Below, in pieces: positions 1-33,998 of a stretch of DNA of 34,318 bases. Source of the stretch: Candidatus Thiodiazotropha sp. (ex Epidulcina cf. delphinae) (lineage in GTDB: Bacteria; Pseudomonadota; Gammaproteobacteria; Chromatiales; Chromatiaceae); the NCBI GenBank assembly GCA_025656505.1, contig JAHXHR010000025.1:1-34318 (forward strand). The letters are read 5' to 3'. Below the pieces are notes generated by a model. The model ran no database searches, was not told the origin of the DNA, and saw only the letters and a list, made by a program, of their open reading frames with translations. The position numbers were made by a program, and so were the translations under genes. Numbering within the stretch: the stretch's first letter is position 1; each line of letters opens with the position of its first letter.

Positions 1-2
1 CC

Positions 3-74
3 CGATATGAGCGTTTAGCCATTACTTATCAAGCCATGCTCAGTTTGGTAGCCACTGTTATTTGGCTTAATTGA
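3..74 (+). pseudogene. C-terminal end of an IS5-type transposase (cut by window edge)
   Basis: The frame starting at position 3 reads RYERLAITYQAMLSLVATVI followed by WLN and a TGA stop at 72-74. The pattern RYE(K/R)xA..(Y/F)xAM..L.....IWL is the usual C-terminus of IS5-family DDE transposases. The TGA stop overlaps the terminal inverted repeat that follows, as is common for insertion sequences. Only the last 23 codons are visible, so whether the element is intact depends on sequence to the left of the window. Family assignment is from remembered C-terminal consensus, without a search. Confidence 0.6.
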
Positions 75-87
75 GAACGCCCCCTAG
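70..87 (+). repeat. Right terminal inverted repeat of the IS at the left edge
   Basis: ATTGAGAACGCCCCCTAG ends the transposase fragment. The same end recurs at both ends of the 167-bp element at 4641-4807, in inverted orientation. The outer CTAG may be a target-site duplication or part of the repeat. Confidence 0.65.
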
Positions 88-235: not shown

Positions 236-258
236 GCCCTAGTACTGTTTAGAAACCC

Positions 259-329
259 GTAGGTCACGTTGCGCAGCTACGTGACACCCCCCTTGAGTCA
301 GGTAGCCGCTCCGCGTCAACCTGACCTAC
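259..329. repeat. Pair of inverted REP-like palindromes
   Basis: Positions 259-285 (GTAGGTCAC...GTGAC) and 297-329 (GTCAGGTAGC...CTGACCTAC) are each imperfect palindromes and are diverged inverted copies of each other: both have the core GTAGGTCA(C/G)GTT...GCTAC(G/C)TGAC. This is the layout of paired REP/BIME units lying between genes. It sits downstream of the hydrolase gene, which ends at 386 on the minus strand. Confidence 0.55.
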
Positions 330-385
330 TATTAAACTCAGCCTAATATCCGGCACGTAAAAAAGCCCTGGCGTGGCTTGATATA

Positions 386-3198: not shown

Positions 3199-3501
3199 CA
3201 TAGAAAAAAAAATAATAACAAGTGGTTAGCGTTTATCTCCACAAGGCAAGGATTCCTGCGGCGTATGGCTGATAAACCATACGAAACGAGAAACGGAAAG
3301 TGATGATGCTACAGTATATAATCAGTACAATGCCGATAAGCTACAGAAATGCAACTGCTGACTGACCCATACACGCCTCCAGTGACGCCTGAATTTTCTC
3401 ACGGCGTCGGCAGAACCCATACTTTTTTTGCGGTAGAATGCTCCGTCAAAACACAACACGTTATCGCACCCAACCTTGATATACGCTTTTAGGATCGATC
3501 C
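3199..3501. other. Intergenic region, A-rich start and one small hairpin
   Basis: No ORF of note is seen here. After the cytochrome stop there is an A-rich run (about 3200-3220). A 7-bp inverted repeat CGTATGG...CCATACG at 3262-3283 forms a small hairpin without a following T-run, so it is not a convincing terminator. AGGATCG before the 3502 ATG is a plausible ribosome-binding site for the next gene. Confidence 0.5.
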
Positions 3502-3879
3502 ATGAAACTACTACTTACCTATATGCTTGCCGCCACATTCGCTACCGCTGTCTTGGCAGAGGTTCCCGCCGGTCATCCACCCGTGGATCACGAAGCCATA
3601 GCGAAACAGGCCGCTGAGCAGCCCATGCCGGATCTCAAGTCGATGACCCATGGCAAAGTCGTCAGCGTCCTTAATACCCAGGGATATACCTACATCGAGT
3701 TATCGCGGGATAAGGGAACCGCCTGGGTGGCCGTGCCTGAGACGGTAGTCAAGGCTGGAGATACCGTCCACTACAAAGACGGCCCTGCAATGCAAAATTA
3801 CAAAAGCCGGACGCTTGACAGAACCTTTCCCTCAGTGATCTTCTTGTCCCAAGTGATTGTCAACGCCGACACAAAATAG
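3502..3879 (+). CDS. Small periplasmic NrfJ-like protein
   Basis: The 125-aa protein begins with a signal peptide (MKLLLTYMLAATFATAVLA/EVP). The mature part has the pattern GKVVSVLNTQGYTYIELS, then TAWVAVPETVVKAGDTV and MQNYKSRTLDRTFPSVIF. From memory this resembles small secreted proteins annotated NrfJ or NrfJ-related in Shewanella and other proteobacteria (motifs Y(S/T)YIE, W.A.P, NFKS+TL.RTF). Their role is unproven; some are encoded near c-type cytochromes, and here the gene follows a tetrahaem cytochrome by 303 bp on the same strand. It lacks cysteines and CXXCH motifs, so it does not bind haem covalently. An OB-fold-like beta barrel is my guess from the alternating hydrophobic strands. 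Confidence 0.65.
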   Translation: MKLLLTYMLAATFATAVLAEVPAGHPPVDHEAIAKQAAEQPMPDLKSMTHGKVVSVLNTQGYTYIELSRDKGTAWVAVPETVVKAGDTVHYKDGPAMQNYKSRTLDRTFPSVIFLSQVIVNADTK

Positions 3880-3888
3880 CCTCATTGA

Positions 3889-3916
3889 CGGGTCAGCGTA
3901 AGCGTGCGCTGACCCG
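3889..3916. terminator. Bidirectional terminator-like hairpin between convergent genes
   Basis: CGGGTCAGCG (3889-3898) and CGCTGACCCG (3907-3916) form a perfect 10-bp stem with an 8-nt loop, in the 43-bp gap between the stop codons of the NrfJ-like gene (plus) and the last AOR-operon gene (minus). There is no long T-run on either side, so intrinsic termination may be partial. Confidence 0.55.
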
Positions 3917-3922
3917 CTCGGC

Positions 3923-4192
3923 TTAGCCGCCGCCCCGCCTGAAACAGAGATCGAATCGAGACCGAAAGCGTTCCATCTCAGACGAATCCGATCCACGGAA
4001 AATCAGTGCGACCCGGGTCGAGGGCATCTTGAGCGCGCCTAATTCGCTTTCACCCTCTGCTCCCAAGCTGATCTCGACACTCAACCGGCGATCTGAAATT
4101 ACAATCCGCTTTCCCCCTTCTTCGAGCCTGTATCGATAGTGTTGCCTGAGCGGTTGGAGGCTACGCAGGAATTCGGCATGTGTGATGGACAT
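3923..4192 (-). CDS. Small unknown protein of the AOR operon, C-terminal GGG
   Basis: The 89-aa protein begins MSITHAEFLRSLQPL; the start at 4192 has TTTTAGGATC directly before it, giving an AGGA ribosome-binding site that is part of the inserted repeat. An alternative ATG at 4222 lies inside that repeat and is unlikely to be original. The protein is predicted alpha-beta-rich (YRYRLEEGGKRIVISDRRLS, then ALIFRGSD) and ends in FDLCFRRGGG. I cannot name a domain. It is the fifth gene of the cluster; from memory, Aromatoleum-type AOR operons are described as aorABCDE with two small maturation genes last, so this would be the aorE position. The C-terminal glycines recall ubiquitin-like sulfur carriers such as the neighbouring MoaD-like protein, but that is speculation. 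Confidence 0.65.
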   Translation of the reverse strand: MSITHAEFLRSLQPLRQHYRYRLEEGGKRIVISDRRLSVEISLGAEGESELGALKMPSTRVALIFRGSDSSEMERFRSRFDLCFRRGGG

Positions 4193-4193
4193 G

Positions 4194-4341
4194 ATCCTAA
4201 AAACCGCAGTTGACCGCTCCATTCTGATACTAACCTACTGATATGAAAACTCGTAACTTCGATTTGCCTATTCACCAGCCGGGTAACCACGCTATGGGGC
4301 GAATGGCACGCTTTACCCCGCCCAACTGCGGTTTTTAGGAT
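4194..4341. mobile_element. 148-bp MITE-like element, family B, inside the AOR operon
   Basis: The left end ATCCTAAAAACCGCAGTTG and the right end CAACTGCGGTTTTTAGGAT (4323-4341) are perfect inverted repeats of about 19 bp. The interior has no gene. The same end sequence (CCTAAAAACCGCAGTTGG.CGGGGT) recurs at about 31005, and a variant (CCTAGAATCCTCAGTTGA) bounds the 294-bp element at 30371-30664. The element ends 1 bp before the start codon of the small gene at 4192 and supplies its AGGA. Confidence 0.7.
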
Positions 4342-4384
4342 GATCCGTTGATGCACCTGGGCTTCCACTGACATACCGTCAATC

Positions 4385-4639
4385 TCACCCTCCGGCGACG
4401 GGTGGCCACAGGGCTATGACATCCCCGTTCCGTAACAGGGACGCCCCACGCTGCGAAGGCGGCAGGAACATTCCGTTCCGCACCACCAGATGGGCCTGAG
4501 CGCGGGGCACGCGACAACGATCCATCAAATCGTAGACGGTTGCGCCGTCGGGTAGATCGACCATGACACTATGCCCCGCAGCACCGGCAGGAAGAAACGC
4601 CATCAGAGATGCAAACAGTTTCAACTCAACATGCGCCAT
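4385..4639 (-). CDS. MoaD/ThiS-family sulfur carrier of the AOR operon
   Basis: The 84-aa protein MAHVELKLFASLMAFLPAG... has the ubiquitin-like beta-grasp pattern: strand VELKLFASL, then SVMVDLPDGATVYDLMDRCRV, HLVVRNGMFL, and the C-terminal strand DVIALWPPVAGG. The terminal Gly-Gly is the adenylation/thiocarboxylation tail of MoaD, which donates sulfur to the dithiolene of molybdopterin. MoaD-like genes are standard companions of tungsten AORs, where they are thought to serve the tungstopterin. The start at 4639 is fixed by family alignment; a longer ATG at 4657 lies within the inserted repeat. Upstream of this ATG there is only repeat sequence (GAGAACGCCCCCTAGA), so the original ribosome-binding site appears lost. 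Confidence 0.8.
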   Translation of the reverse strand: MAHVELKLFASLMAFLPAGAAGHSVMVDLPDGATVYDLMDRCRVPRAQAHLVVRNGMFLPPSQRGASLLRNGDVIALWPPVAGG

Positions 4640-4640
4640 T

Positions 4641-4807
4641 CTAGGGGGCGTTCTCAATTACCTGAGTGAGCGTGATTCTGAGTCATTTTTCGTGCCGGCA
4701 AGGCGCGATGAGGCGCAATAGTCATTCTATTGCAACGAATCGCAACGCCGCCAGCGCGGAAAAGGGCCGGAATCACGCCGCGAACGATGATTGAGAACAC
4801 CCCCTAG
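4641..4807. mobile_element. 167-bp MITE-like element, family A, between AOR FAD and MoaD-like genes
   Basis: CTAGGGGGCGTTCTCAAT at 4641-4658 and ATTGAGAACACCCCCTAG at 4790-4807 are inverted ends differing at one position. The similarity extends inward less perfectly to GCGTGATTC. The ends match the IS5-type terminus at 70-87, so this is probably a non-autonomous derivative mobilised by that transposase. CTAG at both ends may be the target duplication. It begins 1 bp upstream of the MoaD-like start codon and ends 9 bp after the FAD-subunit stop codon. Confidence 0.75.
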
Positions 4808-4816
4808 TGTCCTATA

Positions 4817-6064
4817 CTAGCTAACACCCAGCACCGATCCCAGATAGGCTTCCATCAAGCGGGTCGGATCCTTCATTAAACGCTTCTTCCACTCGCCCAA
4901 CGGGACACGACTACGGATCAATCCCCCGAGTACGCCGATGTGCCGGGTATGCCCAAGGCAACCGGCGCCGATGAGATACTCGCCCTCGAATTGGAGTTGC
5001 AAATAACGGTATCTATCCTCATCCAGCAAGATCGATGACTCCCCCCCTTCGACACCCATCCATTGGCCGAAGGAGACCGAAATCAATCCCAGGGTATCCA
5101 GGATGTTCATATTAAGGCTGCCCTGATGAACAACGCTCTCTCCTGAGACCATGTTCGATGCAGCGATTCGGCCATGCTCCACCGCGGTAGGCTGAATCGC
5201 CTGCACGGCATAGCCGCCGGTGGAATAGTCCCGGGCTTGTGCAACATCCCCGGCGGCGAAGATCCCTTGTTGATTGGTCTCCAGATGGGCATTCACCAAC
5301 ACACCTTGGTCAATAGCGAGACCCGACCCCGCCAGAAACCCGATATTCGGACTGACTCCCATCGCCGTGATCACTAAGCCGGCGGACAAGCGATCTCCAT
5401 TCTCCAGGTTGACGGTTAACCCACTGTGGTCTTTTTCTATCCCGGCCACGCCACTACCGGTGATGATAGTGACGCCTCGGTCTTCACACCATGCCTTTAA
5501 CAGGTTGCCTGCCACCTCATCCAGCATCCGGGGAACCATGCGATCCGCCTTTTCCACCACCGTCAGTTGTACACCACGTCCAACCAGCGCTTCCAGGATG
5601 ATGCAACCGATGAATCCTGCGCCGATCAACGCCACCGACACACCCGGCTTGACCCGCTCGATAATGGCGCGGGCATCCGCCAGCGTCCAGCAGCTATGAA
5701 CGCCTGCTGAGTCGATGCCGGAAATCGGCGGTTTGACCGGGGTTGCACCCGATGCGATCAGCAGACGATCGAAGGTCAGCGCATCGCCCTGCGCCAGGGT
5801 TACCGACCTGTGTTGCGGATGAACGCCGGTGACGCTCTCCTGCAGGCGTTCTATCCGCCGTTCACTATAGTGGCTTTCCGATTTCCGCAGGTAGGCGCCT
5901 CGTTCGTCAATATCCTCGGCCAATAGATAGGGGATAGCCATACGGGAATAGGGTGGTTCCGGTTCGCCGCCGACCAAGGTGATTCGGGCGGAGAGATCCA
6001 GTTCGCGTATGGTGTCGCAAGCCATGACGCCTGCCGGTCCGGCGCCTATAACGATATGATGCAT
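4817..6064 (-). CDS. aorC: FAD/NAD(P)-dependent oxidoreductase subunit of the AOR complex
   Basis: The 415-aa protein has an N-terminal FAD-binding Rossmann motif (VIGAGPAGVMA), a second dinucleotide motif for NAD(P)H (VALIGAGFIGCIILEAL, about 145-160), the ATG.SPN-type segment (ITAMGVSPN) and the GIFAAGDVAQ motif that binds the FAD phosphate side. This is the pyridine nucleotide-disulfide oxidoreductase family without a redox-active CxxxxC pair. Position next to the AOR and ferredoxin subunits fits the NAD-reducing FAD subunit of Aromatoleum-type AorABC, which lets aldehyde oxidation be coupled to NAD. It follows the catalytic subunit by 29 bp. Nitrite-reductase-like or rubredoxin-reductase roles are alternatives if considered alone. 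Confidence 0.75.
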   Translation of the reverse strand: MHHIVIGAGPAGVMACDTIRELDLSARITLVGGEPEPPYSRMAIPYLLAEDIDERGAYLRKSESHYSERRIERLQESVTGVHPQHRSVTLAQGDALTFDRLLIASGATPVKPPISGIDSAGVHSCWTLADARAIIERVKPGVSVALIGAGFIGCIILEALVGRGVQLTVVEKADRMVPRMLDEVAGNLLKAWCEDRGVTIITGSGVAGIEKDHSGLTVNLENGDRLSAGLVITAMGVSPNIGFLAGSGLAIDQGVLVNAHLETNQQGIFAAGDVAQARDYSTGGYAVQAIQPTAVEHGRIAASNMVSGESVVHQGSLNMNILDTLGLISVSFGQWMGVEGGESSILLDEDRYRYLQLQFEGEYLIGAGCLGHTRHIGVLGGLIRSRVPLGEWKKRLMKDPTRLMEAYLGSVLGVS

Positions 6065-6093
6065 CTCAACTCATTGCTGATATCAGCGTGACG

Positions 6094-7947
6094 TCAGGAT
6101 AGACCAAGCCGCCGCCGGGTTGCATCCGTCGGCACGCCGTCAGCGGTCCAGCCGCGCAACGCATAATATTCCGGCAACATGTCATGCAGATCGTTGACAC
6201 GCCCTTTAGCCGGTCCGCTGTCGGCCGCCTCCTCCAGCAACCGCTTGGGCAAGGTATCATCGGCGGCGGTCAGGCCCGCGCGAATGTTGAACTCCCGCTC
6301 CATATTCCAGATGCGCTCTCCCACTTCCTGTAACCGTTCAGCCGTCCACTCCCCCTCACAGGCCCCATCGACTTGCGGCGCGATATCTTCCAGGGACCAG
6401 GCAAATGTCGTAAACAGGCACAGACCGCTGGAGTCCACGGCGGCGGTGGCATCCTGAAAGGCCTTGACCAATCCGGCCTTACCCTCGGTCACCAGGGGAT
6501 CGGTCTTTTCGGGAATGCCCAGGACTTCCGAGGCAACGGTATACCCTCGCAGATGACAGGCCCCCCGGTTGGATGTGGCATAGGCGAGCCCCATTCCCTG
6601 GATGCCGCGTGGATCGTAGGCGGGGAACTCCTGCCCTTTCACCGTCATAGAGAGTTCGGGGCGCCCGTATTTTTCACACAGTCTTTTCGACCCCAGGCCC
6701 AGATCTTTGCCGAAGCCTTCTCCTTTGACCAATGCCTCCACTGCCCAGACCAGTGTCTCGGCAGAACCGAACTTCAGTGCTTGTCCGCCGGTGTGTTCCA
6801 GGGTGACTGCGCCGATCTTGAACAACTCGATGGCGGCTGCAAGGGTGGAGCCGAAGGAGATCGGATCGAAACCATCCTCATTGCAAACAAAGTTGGCGTA
6901 GGTCAGGGCGTCCAGATCGTCGATGCCGGTATCCGGTCCCAGGGCCCAGGCGGCTTCATACTCCAGCCCCCCGGAGCTGCCCCAGTATTCCGGTTTGTTC
7001 TCGACGGAGAAGTGGCCTTTATCGACCGTTGAGATACGCCCGCAAGCAATGGTGCACCCGAAACAGCCGGCATTCGTGGTCAAGTTGGGTTTACCATCCG
7101 TGGCGCGTTTTTCATGCATCGCCTCCCCCGACACATGCTGCGCTCCCTCAAACTGCACTTCACGCATATTCCGTGTCGGTAATGCGCCGATTTCGTTGAT
7201 GATATTCATCAATACCTGGGTGCCGTAGGTCGGCAGCCCCTGTCCGGTGACCGCGTTGTCGGCAAGCACTTTCTTAGCGGCATTGACCGCACGCATGAAC
7301 TTGGCGGGATCCTTGACATTTCCCACGCCCTCGGTGCCGCGAACGGCCACCGCCTTGAGGTTCTTTGACGCCATTACGGCGCCGACGCCGGAACGTCCGG
7401 CCGCACGATGCAGATCATTGATCACCGCCGCATAGAGACAACCGGCTTCCGCCGTGCGGCCGATGGCGGCGATCCGTAACATGGGATCCTGGTGTTCGTT
7501 GTGCAGCCATTCATCGGTTTGCCAGACACTGGTTCCCCAAATGGCTTCGGCGGGAAGCAACTCAACCCGGTCATTGATGATATAGAGATAGACAGGTTGC
7601 GGAGACCTGCCCTCGAAGATGATCATGTCCCAACCGGCATTGCGCATCTCCGCGCCGATAAAACCACCGGAATTGGAACAGGCCACGCAATGGGTCAAAG
7701 GGCTTTTGGTGACCACCGAATAACGTCCACCCGTCGAGGCCATGGTGCCGGTGAGCGGCCCGGTGGTCATGATCATTTTATTCTCGGGCGAGAGAGGGTC
7801 GATACCTGGATCAATTTCTTCAATCAGGTACTTGGTTGCGAGACCGCGCTGACCGAGATACGCCTGCGCCCATTGGCGGTTTAACGTCTCGGCGACACAA
7901 CGCCCCTCAGTGAGATTGACGCGAAGAATTTTTCCTGCCCATGACAT
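6094..7947 (-). CDS. aorB: Tungsten-dependent aldehyde ferredoxin oxidoreductase, catalytic subunit
   Basis: The 617-aa protein spans the whole AOR family length (about 600-620). It starts MSWAGKILRVNLTEG, the usual N-terminus. The [4Fe-4S] ligands are Cys295, Cys298 and Cys302 in AGCFGCTIACGR plus Cys510 in DSSGLC. TGPLTGTMASTGGRYSVVTKS and the RGACHLRGY motif near 471-479 belong to the tungstopterin-binding region. The enzyme converts aldehydes to carboxylates, reversibly, with electrons passing to ferredoxin or, in the multi-subunit form, NAD. A strong GGAGGGGATC precedes the ATG. The gene lies 17 bp after the ferredoxin subunit and 29 bp before the FAD subunit. Likely use is detoxifying or oxidising aldehydes made during aromatic or amino acid breakdown; the substrate is not readable from sequence. 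Confidence 0.9.
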   Translation of the reverse strand: MSWAGKILRVNLTEGRCVAETLNRQWAQAYLGQRGLATKYLIEEIDPGIDPLSPENKMIMTTGPLTGTMASTGGRYSVVTKSPLTHCVACSNSGGFIGAEMRNAGWDMIIFEGRSPQPVYLYIINDRVELLPAEAIWGTSVWQTDEWLHNEHQDPMLRIAAIGRTAEAGCLYAAVINDLHRAAGRSGVGAVMASKNLKAVAVRGTEGVGNVKDPAKFMRAVNAAKKVLADNAVTGQGLPTYGTQVLMNIINEIGALPTRNMREVQFEGAQHVSGEAMHEKRATDGKPNLTTNAGCFGCTIACGRISTVDKGHFSVENKPEYWGSSGGLEYEAAWALGPDTGIDDLDALTYANFVCNEDGFDPISFGSTLAAAIELFKIGAVTLEHTGGQALKFGSAETLVWAVEALVKGEGFGKDLGLGSKRLCEKYGRPELSMTVKGQEFPAYDPRGIQGMGLAYATSNRGACHLRGYTVASEVLGIPEKTDPLVTEGKAGLVKAFQDATAAVDSSGLCLFTTFAWSLEDIAPQVDGACEGEWTAERLQEVGERIWNMEREFNIRAGLTAADDTLPKRLLEEAADSGPAKGRVNDLHDMLPEYYALRGWTADGVPTDATRRRLGLS

Positions 7948-7964
7948 GATTGATCCCCTCCCGA

Positions 7965-8444
7965 TTAACCCGTTGCCGACCTGCCGGCATCGGTTCTACC
8001 CGCCCAGACACGCATTTTTTCAAATCCGGTCTGATCCGCATCCACATACCGGATCGCAGCCGTCGGACAGGCCTTGGCACAAGCGGGATCGCCGCCGCAG
8101 AGATCGCATTTGATCACCTTGCCGGTAGCACTGTTGTAATTTATCGTGCCGAACGGACAGGCGATGGTACAGACCTTGCAACCGACACACATCGTTGCAT
8201 GAACGACCTTCGCCCCGCTGTCGGCATTGATCGAAATCGCATCCACGGGACAGGCCTGCATGCACCAGGCATCCGTGCATTGGGTGCAGGTATAGGGTAC
8301 GAAACGCCCCTCCTGGTGGAAGGTGAAAACCCGGATTCTCGATTTCGAAGGGTTGAATAATCCTTCGTTTTCGAATGAACACGCCAATTCACACTGTACG
8401 CACCCGGTACATTTATCGGCATCGATCAATAGGGATCTCAGCAT
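7965..8444 (-). CDS. aorA: Four-cluster [4Fe-4S] ferredoxin subunit of the AOR complex
   Basis: The 159-aa protein has four cysteine clusters in the arrangement of HycB/DmsB-type electron-transfer subunits: CTGCVQCELAC near residue 12, CTQCTDAWCMQAC, CVGCKVCTIAC and CDLCGGDPACAKAC. It would pass electrons between the tungsten subunit and the FAD subunit. AAGGAGAT lies 6 bases before the ATG. It is the first gene of the operon and is read from a 192-bp upstream region that separates it from the lysR-type gene. There is no Tat or Sec signal, so the complex is cytoplasmic. Confidence 0.85.
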   Translation of the reverse strand: MLRSLLIDADKCTGCVQCELACSFENEGLFNPSKSRIRVFTFHQEGRFVPYTCTQCTDAWCMQACPVDAISINADSGAKVVHATMCVGCKVCTIACPFGTINYNSATGKVIKCDLCGGDPACAKACPTAAIRYVDADQTGFEKMRVWAGRTDAGRSATG

Positions 8445-8526
8445 GTTGATCTCCTTCCCATCTCACCTTCACGCCTTTTAAACAAGATGAAAGGTTAGTT
8501 GGGAAAGTTTTATAGTTCAAATATTT

Positions 8527-8558
8527 CAGGATGTTGGCCATCCTGTTTGTACAACAGG
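8527..8558. promoter_or_regulatory. Palindromes upstream of the AOR operon, possible operator
   Basis: In the 192-bp AT-rich gap between the LysR gene and the AOR operon lie CAGGATG-TTGGC-CATCCTG (8527-8545) and the adjoining CTGTT-TGTAC-AACAG (8544-8558). Neither has a T-run suited to termination of the LysR gene. Their place 80-120 bp before the operon start fits a regulator-binding site, but this is inference. Confidence 0.3.
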
Positions 8559-8636
8559 AGAAAATAACGACAAATAATGACAATAGATCGTAATGAAATG
8601 ACAAAATGTTACCTTTAAAAAAAAGATTTTGTCTCA

Positions 8637-9554
8637 TCACGTTCTATCACGCAGCAACTGAATAAAAGCCTCTGCCACGGCATTGTTCAAGTTAGAACGG
8701 GTGCGCGCGATCCATAAGGTTCGATTGACGCGTAGACCCTGAATCTTGATGTGGTAGAGCGTTCCCGAGTTCAGTGCATCATCCACGGAAAAACGGGGCA
8801 GGAAACTCACATACCTGTCATGTTGAAGCATCTCGACAATGGTATCCGTCGAACCGACCTCCATGGTAATCGGTAACTGGTCGATGCCGATATCCTTCAG
8901 CGCCTTGTCGAGGGTGACTCTCATGGATGATTGTGACTCACGCAATACATAGTGCAACTTGCCTAAATCAGTGACCGGTATCAGATCACTGTTCCAGAGC
9001 GGATGCCCCGGACCACAAACCAGCACCAGTTCGTCATCCAACCATTTCTGTACCCGTATTTCAGGGTGATCCGGCGCCTGTTCCAGCAGCGCCATATCCG
9101 ATAGGCCGGTGGCCAAATGCCGCTGGATGCGGCGGGTATAGCCCATGCGACTCTCGATTCTGAACTCAGGATAGCTTTCTGCAAAACCGAGCAGCAGATC
9201 AGGCAGCATATGCTCACCGATGGCGAAGGTAACTTCGAGGCGCAACCGGTTTTGACCTAACCTCAGCGACTCCAGGTCGTCCAATAAGGAGGTCTGATGA
9301 TCGAGTACCAAGCATGCATAGGCATAGACCTTTTTACCCGCCGGTGTCAGTTCCAGACGACGCCCTTCCCTCTGCATCAAGGTTACCCCGTAGCATGTAT
9401 CCAGTGCCCGCAGTCGTTTGGTTACCGCAGGTTGACCGACATGCAGCAAATGCGCCGCCGGTGAAACCCCACCCTGCTCGACAACGGCTCTCAGGGTCGC
9501 CAGGCTCTTCAGGTCAGGCAGGATTCTGTATTCTATATTGGAATATAATAACAT
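8637..9554 (-). CDS. LysR-family transcriptional regulator, next to AOR operon
   Basis: The 305-aa protein has the N-terminal winged helix-turn-helix: LATLRAVVEQGGVSPAAHLL, then GQPAVTKRLRALD and REGRRLELTPAGKKV (about residues 17-75). The rest is a periplasmic-binding-protein-like effector domain (VTFAIGEHMLPDLLLGF onward). Length matches the family. It precedes the AOR operon on the same strand and is divergent from the SLC13 transporter gene, with 95 bp between start codons, so it could control either or both. Effector is unknown; an aldehyde, aromatic acid or transported anion are options. The start at 9554 leaves an unusually long hydrophobic lead-in (MLLYSNIEYRILPDL), so the true start may be a little inside. 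Confidence 0.85.
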   Translation of the reverse strand: MLLYSNIEYRILPDLKSLATLRAVVEQGGVSPAAHLLHVGQPAVTKRLRALDTCYGVTLMQREGRRLELTPAGKKVYAYACLVLDHQTSLLDDLESLRLGQNRLRLEVTFAIGEHMLPDLLLGFAESYPEFRIESRMGYTRRIQRHLATGLSDMALLEQAPDHPEIRVQKWLDDELVLVCGPGHPLWNSDLIPVTDLGKLHYVLRESQSSMRVTLDKALKDIGIDQLPITMEVGSTDTIVEMLQHDRYVSFLPRFSVDDALNSGTLYHIKIQGLRVNRTLWIARTRSNLNNAVAEAFIQLLRDRT

Positions 9555-9649: not shown

Positions 9650-10405
9650 GTGAGCATGTTTCCTATTGGAAATGATCTGCCTAACCAGTATGAAATTCAT
9701 GGAGATAGACGAGTGAGTGCGTTGGCCGACGAAGAAACAATAGCTCCGACTACGAGTAGACTCTCTCCCAAACGGCTTATCGTCGGCGTTGTTTCTGTGA
9801 TTGCCGCCTTATTGCTTGCCGGCGTTGTACCGAGTATCGAGATCGCCTGGGTCTGCGCCATCCTGATGCTGACTGTCTACCTCTTCGCCTTCGAGGTCGT
9901 AGGGGTGGACGTGGCCGCCGCCACTATTATGGTATTGCTGGGACTCTCCTCGTTACTCTCGCCTCTCATGGGGTTGGATCAGGGACTGGTGGACAATCAA
10001 CACCTGTTTGACGGCTTCTCTTCCAATGCGGTCATTTCCATCATTGCGGTCATGATCATCGGCGCCGGTCTCGACAGAACCGGCATCATGAGCAATGTTG
10101 CCGCCCTTATCCTCAAGATCGGCGGCACCACGGAGGGGCATATCATTCCGATCATCTCCGCCACAGTCGGATTCATCTCCTCATTCATGAAAAACGTGGG
10201 GGCCGCGGCGCTCTTCCTACCGGTGGTCTCGCGTATATCCGCCCGTACCGGCCTGCCCATGCCACGCCTGCTGATGCCGATGGGATTCACCGCCATCCTG
10301 GGCGGCACCATGACCATGGTCGGCTCCAGCCCGCTGATACTGCTCAACGACCTGATTCTCACCTCGAACAAGGCGCTCCCCGCAGACCAACAGATGTCGA
10401 CTTAG
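9650..10405 (+). pseudogene. SLC13-family permease, N-terminal part before in-frame TAG
   Basis: This 251-aa part holds the first half of an anion permease: after a hydrophilic lead, membrane segments RLIVGVVSVIAALLLAGVV, IAWVCAILMLTVYLFAFEVV and several more, with the re-entrant transport motif region SFMKNVGAAALFLP and GGTMTMVGSSPLILLND. It stops at TAG 10403-10405 in mid-domain, and the same frame continues as the rest of the protein. The start could be GTG 9650, ATG 9656, or GTG 9713, which has GGAG 7 bases upstream. A functional SLC13 protein needs both halves, so this is either a pseudogene, a sequencing error or read-through. Usual substrates are sulfate or dicarboxylates. Confidence 0.75.
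10403..10405 (+). other. In-frame TAG interrupting the SLC13 transporter gene
   Basis: Codons before read ADQQMST and after read GLFSVTPVGLALIA, all in the same frame, with no insertion or deletion needed. The codon would be residue 252 of a continuous 680-aa product. A single substitution from TGG, TTG, TCG, CAG, AAG, GAG, TAC or TAT would explain it. Confidence 0.85.
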
Positions 10406-11692
10406 GGACTGTTTTCGGTAACACCGGTTGGTTTGGCTTTGATCGCCACAAGCATTATCTATTTTGTTCTGGCAGGCCGCTTTGTGCTACCCAAGACGAG
10501 CAGTGAAAGCAGCACCGGCGGCACGGATCCCATGCAGTATTTCCAGAATGTCTACGGCCTCAGCTACCACCTTTCCGAGCTGGTGGTGACGGACGGCAGC
10601 GGTCTGATCGGCAAACAGCTGGACGATGTGGAAACCACCTATAGTGTACGGGTCATCGCCACCAAGCTCTCCGGCGAGGCCAACCGAATCGGGCCGGGCA
10701 CTCTGGCCCGCGATGTCGATATACAGGCGGGTATGGTATTGGGCGTAGTCGCGGATCCCACATCGCTCACCCGGTTTGTCGATACATTCAAGCTGAAAAA
10801 ACGTCCCATGCTGCGCACCTTTGCCAATGATCTCTCCTCCAACAAGGCCGGCATTGCCGAAGTGGTCATCCCGCCCGGTTCCTCGCTAATCGGTAAAAGC
10901 GCCCGTAACATCTGGATGCGCAAAACTTACGGGCTTGCCATGATCGGCATCCACCGCAGTGGAGAAACCCTGCGGGAGGGAGAGGATATCCGGAATATGC
11001 CCTTCATGGCCGGAGACACACTGGTGGTGCATACGCCATGGAACGTTCTACCCAGAATTGAAAAAGACAAACACTTCGTGGTAGTCACCACCGAGTATCC
11101 CCATGAAGATCTGCGTCCACACAGGGTCGGCTGGGCGATGCTGTTTTTCGCCATTGCACTTTCCATGGTCCTGTTCACCGATATCCGCCTCTCCGTGGCC
11201 CTGCTGACCGGCGCCATGGGCATGGTTTTATCCGGTGTGATCGACATCGAGGATGCCTATGAAGCGGTGAGCTGGAAGACCGTATTTCTCCTGGCCTCGC
11301 TGATCCCCCTAGGACTGGCCGTGGAGACGAGCGATACCGCCAAGTGGATTGCCGAACAGCTCCTGTGGGTGGTGGGTGACATGCCCATCTGGGTGATTCA
11401 ACTGGCGCCGGCCCTGCTCGCCACGCTCTTCACATTGGTGATGTCCAATGTGGGCGCCACCGTTCTGCTGGTGCCGCCGGCTGTCAATATCGGCGCCGGT
11501 GCCGATCCGGCGCTCTTCGCCCTCACGGTGGCAATCGCCACATCCAACTCATTTCTGATTCCCACTCATCAGGTCAACGCCTTGAGCATGGGGCCGGCCG
11601 GATATCGTGTATACGACTTCATCCGTGCCGGCGGGATCATGACCCTGCTCTTCCCGGCCGTGATGATGTTGGTGATGAATCTGACCTACTGA
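10406..11692 (+). pseudogene. SLC13-family permease, C-terminal part with two RCK_C domains
   Basis: The open frame continues after the TAG; the first in-frame start-like codon is TTG at 10433, with no good ribosome-binding site. The part encodes one membrane segment, then two TrkA-C (RCK_C)-like cytoplasmic domains (LVVTDGSGLIGKQLDD... and EVVIPPGSSLIGKSARN... ending AGDTLVVHTPW), then the second permease half with SNVGATVLLVPPAVNIG and SFLIPTHQVNAL. This is the standard layout of SLC13/DASS-type proteins with central TrkA-C domains. The reading frame is well kept over 428 codons, meaning the stop is recent, not real, or suppressed. Confidence 0.75.
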
Positions 11693-30370: not shown

Positions 30371-30664
30371 ACCTAGAATCCTCAGTTGACCACTATGCAC
30401 ACGACTCATCATGTTGAGAACATGGGTTTTTTCCGTATTGGGAATACTCACCTAGCGGGTGAGCAGCGTTACGCCGTGAATAGCACGCTTGTGGCGGCGC
30501 ATGGCTGCGTTACAACGCCTTGGAATAGAGCAAACTATTCCGCGCCGTTGCGCGCCGTGCAGGGATGCACCAGTGTCGCAAGCACAGGGATGTGCAGGAG
30601 CGACCCTTGCCCTGCACCATCACAAACGCACTCTTCACGGCGTTCAACTGAGGATTCTAGGTTT
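30371..30664. mobile_element. 294-bp MITE-like element, family B
   Basis: CCTAGAATCCTCAGTTGA near 30373 and TCAACTGAGGATTCTAGG ending near 30664 are perfect inverted ends. The interior has nested palindromes, for example CTCACC...GGGTGAG (about 30447-30463) and GGAATAG...CTATTCC (about 30521-30540), and no convincing gene. Its right half is repeated in inverted orientation at 31005-31170. The ends are related to those of the element at 4194-4341. Confidence 0.7.
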
Positions 30665-30683
30665 AAGGAAAGAGGGTACATTC

Positions 30684-30911
30684 ATGTCAAACACCGCCTT
30701 TTTTGCGGTACTCATCGTCCTCATTCTCGGCATCCTGTATGTGATGAAGGGCAGCGACAATCCGCCGCAAACCGGCATCCACCAGACCCCGAAGGAATAT
30801 ATCGAACTGATAGAGCGGAAAAAAGCGGCGAGGCGCGCGGTCGAACAGTCACTCAGACAGGGAGAGGAAAAGACCCGCAAGGCCCTGGAAGAGGCCGAAG
30901 TTCAGCGTTGA
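30684..30911 (+). CDS. Small single-pass membrane protein with charged tail (75 aa)
   Basis: The ATG at 30684 is preceded by AAAGAGGG. The protein has a membrane segment right after the start (NTAFFAVLIVLILGILYVM), then a hydrophilic tail with a basic/acidic helix (EYIELIERKKAARRAVEQSL onward) likely to form a coiled coil. I recognise no family. It starts 20 bp after one family B repeat and is followed by an inverted partial copy of the same repeat 94 bp after its stop codon, so it lies between two repeat copies; a longer reading from 30489 would run through the repeat and is rejected. Confidence 0.6.
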   Translation: MSNTAFFAVLIVLILGILYVMKGSDNPPQTGIHQTPKEYIELIERKKAARRAVEQSLRQGEEKTRKALEEAEVQR

Positions 30912-31004
30912 CAGAAGACGTTTAAACCGTCCGACCAACTGTAACCGAAGATGACTGATCTTAAAGCGGGTAAAAGCGCGCCCTCTCCCCTGTCTATCAC
31001 ATAA

Positions 31005-31170
31005 CCCTAAAAACCGCAGTTGGACGGGGTGAAGTGCGTGCTTGCGGGGGTGCAGGGCAAGGGTCGCTCCTGCACATCCCTGTGCTTACGGCACTTGTGC
31101 ATCCCTGCACGACGCACAACGACGCGGAATCGTCATGCTACTCCAAGGCGTTGCAACACAGACAAGATGG
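31005..31170. repeat. Partial, inverted copy of the family B element
   Basis: CCTAAAAACCGCAGTTGG begins here and is followed by GCAGGGCAAGGGTCGCTCCT, which is the exact reverse complement of part of 30371-30664 (about 30603-30640). Similarity continues through TGCATCCCTGCACG and AAGGCGTTG and fades by about 31170. No second terminal repeat is found, so the copy is truncated. Confidence 0.65.
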
Positions 31171-31595: not shown

Positions 31596-33998
31596 ATGAA
31601 AGTATTACCCACCCTTCTTCCATTTGTTTTATTGCCTGCGTTATTCGTCACAGAGATGAATCAGGCAACGGCAGGAAGCTTTTCATTCGATAAGGCCATA
31701 TGGAGAAACAGCAAAGACCTTCTTGTATTCAAAGGCACCGGCACGCCGGGGGATCATGTCGAAGCCTATATCTCCGGAACAGAGATCTCATTAGGGACGA
31801 AAACCATTAACCGTCAGGGCAGATGGCGCTTCAAATTCTACAACCCGGAATTCGTACCTTGCGCAATACGCGCCGCCAGCGGACCTTACACGACAATACG
31901 AGGTGTCAGCTCGGCCCCGGCCGATTGTGTTGACGGAAACAACCTTCCCGCAGAAAACAATCCTCCCGTCATCAGTGGAACACCCTCTACTCTGGCAGCC
32001 GAAGGCACGGCATACAGCTTCAGACCCAATGCCGGCGATGCAGATGGCGATAACCTGGTTTTTTCCATCGCCAACAAGCCTTCATGGGCAAGCTTCAACG
32101 CCTCCACGGGCGCACTCAGCGGCACGCCCGGCTTCGGCGATGGCGGAATGCCCGGCGGCAGTTCCGGCACCACCAGCGATATCCGTATCAGTGTCTCCGA
32201 CGGCAAGGCAAGCGCATCATTGAGCCCCTTCAGCATCACCGTCACCAACACCAATCGGCCGCCCACGATCAGCGGCTCACCGTCAACATCCGTCGCCGAG
32301 GGCGCCCACTACGGATTCCTACCCAGCGCCAGTGACGCCGACGGTGACGGCCTGGTATTTTCCATCACCAACAAGCCTTCATGGGCAAGTTTCAACGCCT
32401 CCACGGGCGCACTCAGCGGCACACCCGGCTTCGGCGACGGCGGAATGCCCGGCGGCAGTTCCGGCACCACCAGCGATATCCGCATCAGTGTCTCCGACGG
32501 CAAGGCAAGCGCATTATTGAGCCCCTTCAGCATCACCGTCACCAACACCAATCGGCCGCCCACGATCAGCGGCACACCGTCAACATCCGTCGCCGAGGGC
32601 GCCCACTACGGATTCCTCCCCAGCGCCAGTGACGCCGACGATGACGGCCTGGTATTTTCTATCGCCAACAAACCCGCCTGGGCAAGCTTCAACGCCTCCA
32701 CGGGCGCACTCAGCGGCACACCGGATCTCAACGATGCAGGCACAACCGGCAACATTCGCATCAGTGTCTCCGACGGCAGTGCGAGCGCAGCACTGAGCGC
32801 CTTCAGCATCACCGTAACGAACACCAATCAGGCGCCGACGATCAGCGGTACTCCCGTGCTCAGTATCGATGAAGGCAATGCCTATCGGTTCACCCCCAAT
32901 GCCGGCGACCCGGATGGTGATTCATTGACTTTCTCCATCACCAACCTGCCGAACTGGGCGGCATTCGATTCAAGCAACGGCAGCCTGAGCGGCACGCCGG
33001 ATTCCGACTCGGCCGGCGTCTATTCGAATATCGTCATTACCGTGTCGGATGGTAGTAAACAAGCCAGCCTTGCACCGTTCGGGATTGCCATAGCAGACGT
33101 TCCGCAGGGCGGAACGTTCCAGTTCGCTAGCAGCACCTACAGCGTGGATGAGGGTAACAACCTAACCCTGACCGTCATCAGGGACAACAGCGCCGGTGTC
33201 GCCAGCGTCAACTATGGCACCATCGGCGTAGAAGCGAAGTACTCTGAAGACTATATCGGTTATGTCTGGACACCGCTGACATTCCAGGATGGCGAGTCGA
33301 GCAAGACCATTCAACTATCCACCTTGTCGGATGACATTGTTGAAAACGACGAAACATTGGGCGTACACCTTGATTCCGCCTCCAGTGGCTATTCCCTCGC
33401 CTCTCCTTCGGTAAGCGTCGTCACCATCCATGACATGTCAGCTCCGAATCAGGCGCCGACCATCAGCGGCACCCCCGCGCAGAGCGTCATCGAAGGAAAC
33501 GAGTATCTGTTTGCTCCGACCGCCACAGACCCCGATGGCGACAGCCTGAGCTTCAGTGTCACCAACCTTCCCGGTTGGGCGGTATTCGACACCAACAACG
33601 GCGAACTGAGTGGGACACCCACTGCCGCAGATGTCGGCCCCTACGAAGGGATCGTGATTTCCGTAACAGACGGTGAGGAAACCGCCTCCTTGGCGCCGAT
33701 GAGTCTTCAGGTCGAAAACTCTACGTCTACGACCGGCAGCATCTCCCTGTCATGGGTGCCTCCCGTCACACGGACCGACGGCGCCCCCTTGGACATGAGC
33801 GAAATCGCCGGCTACAAGATCTATATGGGTAACTCTCAAGACAACCTCGCACCGATCATGGAGTATGAAGACTGCACCATCCAAAATCATCTGTTCGATA
33901 ATCTCGAAACCGGCGACTACTATTTCGCAGTCACCGCATATGATACCGACGGCATTGAGAGCGGATTCTCCAACGTTGCCATGAAGAGCGCCATGTAG
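31596..33998 (+). CDS. Secreted repeat protein: Ig/cadherin-like, Calx-beta and Fn3 domains
   Basis: The 800-aa protein has a signal peptide (MKVLPTLLPFVLLPALFVTE...A), an N-terminal domain (GSFSFDKAIWRNSKDLLVF to about 115; a Cys pair), then putative-Ig/cadherin-like repeats, each with PP(V/T)ISGTPS, DADGD.L.FSI.NKP.WASFN, TGALSGTP and ISVSDG...FSITVTNTN. Four such repeats run from about residue 125, then a Calx-beta domain (TFQFASSTYSVDEGNNL to about 615), a fifth repeat, and a C-terminal Fn3-like domain (SISLSWVPP to GFSNVAMKSAM). D-rich loops suggest calcium binding. Repeats 1 and 2 carry an extra glycine-rich GFGDGGMPGGSSGTTS loop; repeat 3 lacks it. It is likely a surface or extracellular adhesion or matrix protein; no sorting signal or autotransporter domain is seen. 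Confidence 0.85.
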   Translation: MKVLPTLLPFVLLPALFVTEMNQATAGSFSFDKAIWRNSKDLLVFKGTGTPGDHVEAYISGTEISLGTKTINRQGRWRFKFYNPEFVPCAIRAASGPYTTIRGVSSAPADCVDGNNLPAENNPPVISGTPSTLAAEGTAYSFRPNAGDADGDNLVFSIANKPSWASFNASTGALSGTPGFGDGGMPGGSSGTTSDIRISVSDGKASASLSPFSITVTNTNRPPTISGSPSTSVAEGAHYGFLPSASDADGDGLVFSITNKPSWASFNASTGALSGTPGFGDGGMPGGSSGTTSDIRISVSDGKASALLSPFSITVTNTNRPPTISGTPSTSVAEGAHYGFLPSASDADDDGLVFSIANKPAWASFNASTGALSGTPDLNDAGTTGNIRISVSDGSASAALSAFSITVTNTNQAPTISGTPVLSIDEGNAYRFTPNAGDPDGDSLTFSITNLPNWAAFDSSNGSLSGTPDSDSAGVYSNIVITVSDGSKQASLAPFGIAIADVPQGGTFQFASSTYSVDEGNNLTLTVIRDNSAGVASVNYGTIGVEAKYSEDYIGYVWTPLTFQDGESSKTIQLSTLSDDIVENDETLGVHLDSASSGYSLASPSVSVVTIHDMSAPNQAPTISGTPAQSVIEGNEYLFAPTATDPDGDSLSFSVTNLPGWAVFDTNNGELSGTPTAADVGPYEGIVISVTDGEETASLAPMSLQVENSTSTTGSISLSWVPPVTRTDGAPLDMSEIAGYKIYMGNSQDNLAPIMEYEDCTIQNHLFDNLETGDYYFAVTAYDTDGIESGFSNVAMKSAM
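31969..32860 (+). repeat. Tandem 297-bp DNA repeats within the repeat-protein gene
   Basis: The unit spans 297 bp (99 codons): TTCATGGGCAAG occurs at 32081 and 32378, and TGGGCAAG again at 32679, all in step. Units 1 and 2 are near-identical in DNA, with unit 3 shortened in the glycine-rich part but with otherwise close sequence downstream. Such identity indicates recent duplication or gene conversion and copy-number instability. Confidence 0.75.

Follow-up and report, generated by a model that had tools for sequence, protein, structure and literature searches.

How did two unrelated repeats come to lie in the last genes of an operon for an aldehyde oxidoreductase (AOR), and what did they do to these genes? 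The question is raised by a DNA stretch of 34,318 nucleotides (hereafter the window), which is contig 25 (JAHXHR010000025.1) of the genome G000 (3.43 Mb, 159 contigs) of Candidatus Thiodiazotropha sp. (ex Epidulcina cf. delphinae). The genome belongs to the genus of Candidatus Thiodiazotropha, sulfur-oxidizing gill symbionts of lucinids. On the minus strand, from position 8444 down to 3923, the window carries aorA, aorB, aorC, aorD and aorE in this order, as a preliminary description of the sequence had stated; the first four have the expected Pfam domains. We consider it very probable that the tail of this operon was hit by two unrelated small elements in a lineage-specific burst, and that their sites reflect target preference together with survival where an insertion was tolerated.

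Two small elements in the operon tail

Judged by gene order and domains (Pfam for A to D, together with the match to the Aromatoleum aromaticum operon), the five genes form an aorABCDE operon of the kind that encodes the Aromatoleum AOR. Family membership suggests that the enzyme contains tungsten. The AOR protein of the window is 85–94% identical in 20 of the 21 other same-genus genomes and 69% identical in the remaining one. The features of the locus, and the end of the presumed parent of element 1 at the window edge, are as follows (TIR, terminal inverted repeat; IS, insertion sequence; MITE, miniature inverted-repeat transposable element; ORF, open reading frame; dN/dS, ratio of non-synonymous to synonymous substitution rates):

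7965–8444, minus strand: aorA, ferredoxin-like subunit, 159 amino acids (aa); Pfam Fer4 families; 96.8% identical in the sister genome G007
6094–7947, minus strand: aorB, tungsten/molybdenum-pterin subunit, 617 aa; Pfam AFOR_N and AFOR_C; open; dN/dS of 0.135 against G007
4817–6064, minus strand: aorC, FAD/NAD subunit, 415 aa; Pfam Pyr_redox_2
4807–4816, minus strand: what is left of the original aorC-aorD spacer, TATAGGACAC; holds the former Shine-Dalgarno sequence (TAGGAC in the empty site), now separated from aorD by element 1
4805–4806: TA target duplication of element 1, aorC side, read from the flanks
4644–4804: core of element 1, 161 bp, TIR GGGGGYGTTCTCAATnA, IS5-like MITE between aorC and aorD; multicopy, TA flanks, IS-like ends
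4642–4643: TA target duplication of element 1, aorD side, read from the flanks
4385–4639, minus strand: aorD, MoaD/ThiS-like, 84 aa, ending GG; Pfam ThiS (6.8e-08)
4372–4374, minus strand: most likely native start codon of aorE, 10 nt past the aorD stop; homologous upstream starts in congeners, leader motif
4340–4344: target duplication ATGAT of element 2, upstream copy, read from the flanks
4196–4339: core of element 2, 144 bp, TIR CCTAAAAACCGCAGTTG, MITE-like, within aorE; 5-bp duplications; absent here from G007
4220–4222, minus strand: in-frame ATG from element 2, MERSTAVFRIMSIT..., opening a 99-aa AorE ORF (frame reading)
4191–4195: target duplication ATGAT of element 2, read from the flanks; on the minus strand, the internal ATG takes its AT from the last two bases of this copy
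3923–4192, minus strand: remaining coding part of aorE from an internal Met, 89 aa, ending RRGGG
1–86, plus strand: presumed parent IS end of element 1 with C-terminal transposase residues and TIR (TIR match at 70–86); such ends are found at the edges of contigs in both G000 and G007

Element 1 is short, lacks a transposase ORF and has inverted ends; it is dispersed in many copies that carry target duplications, all of which are features of a MITE. At least 40 matches with 98–100% identity over all or nearly all of its length were found in G000, a lower bound since 40 of 129 candidates were scored, together with 158 exact TIR ends, IS ends counted in. All 30 fetched loci have TA on both sides. 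The left TA is preceded by C or T in 30 of 30, and the right TA is followed by A or G in 29 of 30 (T in L053), such that the target reads YTAR. IS5-family insertion sequences use YTAR/TA targets. The TIR is common to a co-resident IS whose ends lie at contig edges, the two agreeing in 17 bp on one side and in 15 of 17 on the opposite side. The parent-type end at window 1–86 was also found in G007 but is missing from the 21 further genomes searched, and the IS type is known from G000 and G007 only, among 23 genomes. The same holds for near-full-length element 1 (G007: five copies); G003, G008, G009, G015 and G017 show only internal stretches of some 60 bp that match with 79–84% identity. The IS end fragments read ITYQAMLSLVATVIWLN, and translation of locus L231 gives MTRTILRDDQWERIKDLLP. 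Both are reminiscent of IS5-type transposases. A Pfam search with the 22-residue C-terminal fragment gave no match; besides it, only about 19 N-terminal residues are visible. The parent, as far as its end fragments go, appears similar to the IS5 family in its TA duplication within YTAR and in these two sequences.

Element 2 belongs to a different family; the earlier statement that the two inserts are unrelated repeats stands. Exact 16-base ends number 178 in G000, 10 in G007 and one each in G003 and G015, with none in the other 19 of the 23 genomes. A TIR one base longer is present in 3 of 369 genomes of the class, G000 among them (G007 lies outside this sample). Fifty-one distinct copies were obtained from 82 loci, excluding copies without a partner TIR at 90–480 bp or lying less than 60 bp from a locus edge. 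Perfect 5-bp duplications, mostly WTNAW, flank 38 of them; in aorE the duplication is ATGAT/ATCAT. TIRs, target duplications and many copies again are those of a MITE. An end of this type also opens one arm of a 132-nt inverted repeat pair at window 30534–31133, with 336 nt between the arms.

Both insertions are absent from relatives. The aorC-aorD junction was readable in 19 of the 21 other same-genus genomes; the contigs of G009 and G015 end too early. With the aorD starts of the relatives chosen by us among the possible ones, aorD begins −11 to +55 nt from the aorC stop in 18 of these 19 genomes, compared to +177 in the window and +355 in the sister genome G007. The G007 spacer (L089) is filled by repeats that differ from element 1. 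Two of its parts are repetitive: copies of the initial 145 bp occur in 5 of 21 further loci of G007 and in 2 of 143 loci of G000, and a later part is found again at window 247–339 with 95.7% identity. The aorD-aorE region is without insert in all 18 congeners in which aorE was found, G007 included. At the site of element 2 the flanking alignment blocks of G007 overlap by 7 bp and leave no extra DNA. Aligning the locus with related genomes, a check put forward in the preliminary description, revealed relatives that lack these repeats rather than what had been named there as refuting, the same spacers without repeat character.

Translation signals of aorD and the start of aorE

Element 1 inserted into CTAG in the aorC-aorD spacer, duplicating TA, breaking the close stop-start arrangement and shifting the Shine-Dalgarno sequence away by 163 nt. 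In the empty site TAGGAC lies 6 nt before the ATG (duplex −3.9), and the best match in the filled site is weaker (−2.7), which supports the proposed loss of the native aorD signal. The element had been described as 167 bp long and ending 1 bp before the ATG of the MoaD-like gene. It does adjoin this ATG; its core, however, measures 161 bp, and 2 nt lie between the TA duplication and the ATG. Shine-Dalgarno sequences of aorD in 18 congeners are weak to moderate (−2.4 to −6.5), which is consistent with translational coupling to aorC. In G007 the repeat end gives aorD a CGGAGT 7 nt from its ATG. A motif resembling TATAGGACACTA, with at most 2 mismatches, lies within 30 bp of 6 of the 30 element 1 copies (L030, L048, L049, L050, L052, L054). 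This motif also makes up the old aorD Shine-Dalgarno sequence and may be the remnant of another repeat.

For element 2 the preliminary description had given 148 bp ending 1 bp before the ATG of the next gene. This placement was not confirmed, the core of 144 bp most likely lying inside aorE. The most likely native start is 4374, with CGGAGGG 13 nt upstream, and ATG 4192 is most likely an internal Met. An in-frame ATG or GTG occurs 8–11 codons upstream of the conserved Met in 18 of 18 congeners with aorE found. The protein comparison (62 of 80 loci contributed an aorE sequence; L145, L163 and L169 are misplaced N-terminally and were kept in the tallies) has R or K at position −2 in 54 of 62 relatives and E, T or D at position −1 in 53. 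Met itself is found in 54 of 62; L149, L172, L186, L188 and L192 have F, I or Y instead. Because of the upstream starts, the R/K motif and the replacement of Met in relatives, the leader is most likely protein. The alternative that element 2 truly precedes aorE, with 4192 as start, could draw on the frequency of Met at this position and on family copies that do sit on start codons. Given the conserved residue two positions before the Met, the five relatives with another residue in its place and the upstream starts in all readable congeners, we hold it to be very improbable. The statement that both inserts lie exactly at start codons is thus right for element 1 at the aorD ATG and most likely wrong for element 2, placed 11 codons within aorE.

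Accepting 4374 as the native start, element 2 would have entered ATCAT after 11 codons, duplicated it and shifted the native frame: the insertion adds 149 bases (remainder 2), and the frame from 4374 runs through 11 codons into element 2 and ends at 4099 after 91 aa that are not AorE. The duplication would have retained the internal Met, and element 2 happens to bring an in-frame ATG at 4222. The leader that it supplies has nearly the same length as the native one and ends F-R-I-M. RNA folding predicts ATG 4222 to be buried and ATG 4192 to be partly exposed. An AlphaFold model of the 99-aa AorE has a mean pLDDT (predicted local distance difference test) of 90, and its first strand (residues 4–11) is mostly element-encoded; since the alignment guides the model, this is weak evidence. 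We would expect reduced production of AorD and, to a greater degree, of AorE. The subunit genes aorABC, located upstream of the two inserts, keep their reading frames.

The probable correction of the N-terminus concerns a small GGG-ending protein encoded beside many bacterial AORs, with a putative role in maturation of the tungsten cofactor. The GGG C-terminus is found in 61 of 62 relatives, the exception (L131) being cut by a contig end. AorE had no match in Pfam or NCBIfam, and 55 members of the AorE family had no Pfam family in common. A profile search against PDB sequences gave a best E of 0.35. With the AorE model, Foldseek found as best PDB match 1v8c (MoaD-related) at E 8.5e-3 and none at 0.001 or below, a weak resemblance.

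Target preference, selection and competing explanations

The target preference that had been suggested for the inserts is supported, being YTAR for element 1 and mostly WTNAW for element 2. For element 1, targeting of start codons was rejected: only 2 of 30 loci, the window copy and L045 (distance 9 bp), have a start that opens at least 70 codons no more than 20 bp from an end. Start regions of the form ATGAW and ATNATG fit WTNAW, and duplication at ATGAW retains the ATG. Some element 2 copies do lie on real start codons, namely of moaE after moaD and of a macrodomain gene. The former (L282, 3884–4121), just after an apparent moaD end, is a second pterin-cofactor operon hit by the same family. 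Copies with an ATG at 0/+3 that opens at least 70, 100 or 150 codons number 11, 9 and 8 of 51, versus 225, 178 and 114 of 1352 control WTNAW sites; these frequencies are not clearly different. Starts judged real by eye were found for 7 of 51 copies (L061, L066, L067, L082, L083, L273, L282); in the comparison set, drawn from the window and from stretches of G007, it was 31 of 601 intergenic-plus-start sites (binomial p = 0.015). The L061 start is doubtful, its TtcA match beginning at residue 30, and with only the three starts backed by a profile match p is 0.49. An excess of element 2 at start codons is thus unproven. Of 13 ends that touch the ATG of a long frame, 11 are the B end, which was noticed after the fact. 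The nearest genes within 120 bp show a slight tendency (B side, 20 pointing away and 17 toward; A side, 15 away and 23 toward).

We also compared the locus with its surroundings. Counted by eye from alignment blocks, the window and the G007 contig are separated by 17 breaks over 34 kb, both inserts among them. Two of the breaks fall in a region with a LysR gene and a transporter. Here, a CitMHS-type transporter (window 9650–11692) is read as two ORFs in different frames (profile 2–151 and 169–336), probably due to a frameshift, and in G007 the larger part of it is missing, along with some of the LysR gene. Against G007, dN/dS is 0.062 for aorA, 0.135 for aorB, 0.133 for aorC, 0.145 for aorD and 0.316 for aorE. 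For neighbouring ORFs it is 0.06–0.30 in 21 of 22 and 1.14 in one (23 were tried, one without match; some ORFs cover only part of a gene and two G007 stretches contain stops). For aorB alone, 11 of 11 congener pairs, one saturated in dS, gave 0.00–0.06. Outgroup-invariant columns of the five genes hold 4 derived changes in the window and 3 in G007. Elsewhere in the window, tandem repeats of 297 nt lie in the gene for a large protein (31596–33998) that has Ig-like, cadherin-like and Calx-beta domains.

These data bear on two readings that the preliminary description had raised. The first is that the operon is decaying and the inserts are early steps of its loss; in its favour are the broken aorE frame from the native start and an aorB ratio above that of the congeners. 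However, aorA to aorD and the coding part of aorE are open, their dN/dS values are as in the neighbours of the same species pair, and derived changes at conserved columns are few. We therefore saw no operon-specific decay, and regard this reading as improbable. If the inserts had instead been selected because they lower or retune the supply of AorD and AorE, one would understand why unrelated families struck one operon twice and why different repeats occupy the same spacer in G007. Direct support for such retuning was not obtained: the inserts are just two of the 17 breaks, the aorE insertion shifts the native frame, and no fixed regulatory feature was found. A promoter and terminator scan of 3850–4900 returned a single plus-strand site resembling a promoter, with 0.6 expected, and no terminator, and an Rfam search of 3400–9000 gave no match. 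Adaptive retuning thus appears very improbable; since target preference and survival in tolerated places explain the sites, neither it nor any operon-specific selection is needed.

A further idea would supplement the account by insertion and does not compete with it: element 1 might fold itself out of the mRNA and bring AGGA back beside the aorD AUG, such that aorD translation is largely kept. In the predicted folds the TIR bases pair with probability 1.0, and beside the stem AGGA (0.44–0.99) and the AUG (0.52–1.0) are largely unpaired in three fold windows; the fold z-score of element 1 is −4.95. Split Shine-Dalgarno sequences have a precedent in T4 genes 38 and 25, where structure between Shine-Dalgarno sequence and AUG shortens a long spacing (PMC3014915). 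Yet with the stem closed, AGGA and AUG are only 3 nt apart, element 1 is far larger than the T4 structures, and TAGGAC is a weak match. Moreover, any element with good TIRs forms such a stem (z-score −4.78 for element 2), so that the fold is no evidence of selection. We consider the loop-out unlikely. Equally tentative is the generalization that elements with good TIRs may be nearly silent at gene starts, element 1 by looping out and element 2 by landing on an ATG that its WTNAW copy keeps, with end B facing the gene.

Several points weigh against our account of two burst insertions set by target preference and tolerance. The parent of element 1 is visible only as contig-end fragments, no complete copy being assembled. 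For element 2 no parent transposon was found: wide TIR pairs were present in eight fetched loci, and among the ORFs of L261, the locus examined by eye, no transposase-like one was seen. Translation from 4222 or 4192 could still yield AorE. The presence of two elements in one operon, and of other repeats in the G007 spacer, leaves room for a local hotspot. Finally, the aorB dN/dS exceeds that of all congener pairs, a comparison made for aorB; selection may be weaker in the window-G007 pair as a whole.

Comparison with known systems

Among the open-access literature searched we found no report of an aldehyde oxidoreductase in Thiodiazotropha; MITEs in this genus were not evident among transposition-related open-access papers, going by titles and abstract openings. 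The locus illustrates how an operon tail can be reshaped when MITEs spread in a burst through the genome of a sulfur-oxidizing symbiont. It also offers a natural, sequence-defined test case of whether a hairpin-forming element is tolerated between a Shine-Dalgarno sequence and a start codon. The insertions are most likely an ordinary outcome of a genome-wide burst, although such inserts may have a noteworthy way of preserving gene starts.

The closest known operon is that of A. aromaticum EbN1, whose AOR_Aa, a class III tungsten oxidoreductase (WOR), has the same five-gene set (PMC6365974, PMC13328260). There, aorABC encode the enzyme subunits, and aorD and aorE encode putative tungsten-cofactor maturation factors (PMC6365974). 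The window operon differs in its two repeats, with aorD split off and aorE interrupted. As elements, both repeats resemble MITEAba12/ISAba12 of Acinetobacter (PMC6382973): short, without transposase ORF, with TIRs (shared with an IS in the case of element 1), target duplications and many copies. Fusions at the 5' ends of genes have been reported for MITEAba12/ISAba12 in the same source. The window elements have other ends, TA or WTNAW duplications instead of the 9 bp of MITEAba12, and another host. The T4 spacings of 22 and 27 nt, finally, compare with about 170 nt in the window, where the distance is transposon-made and the fold is a predicted one.

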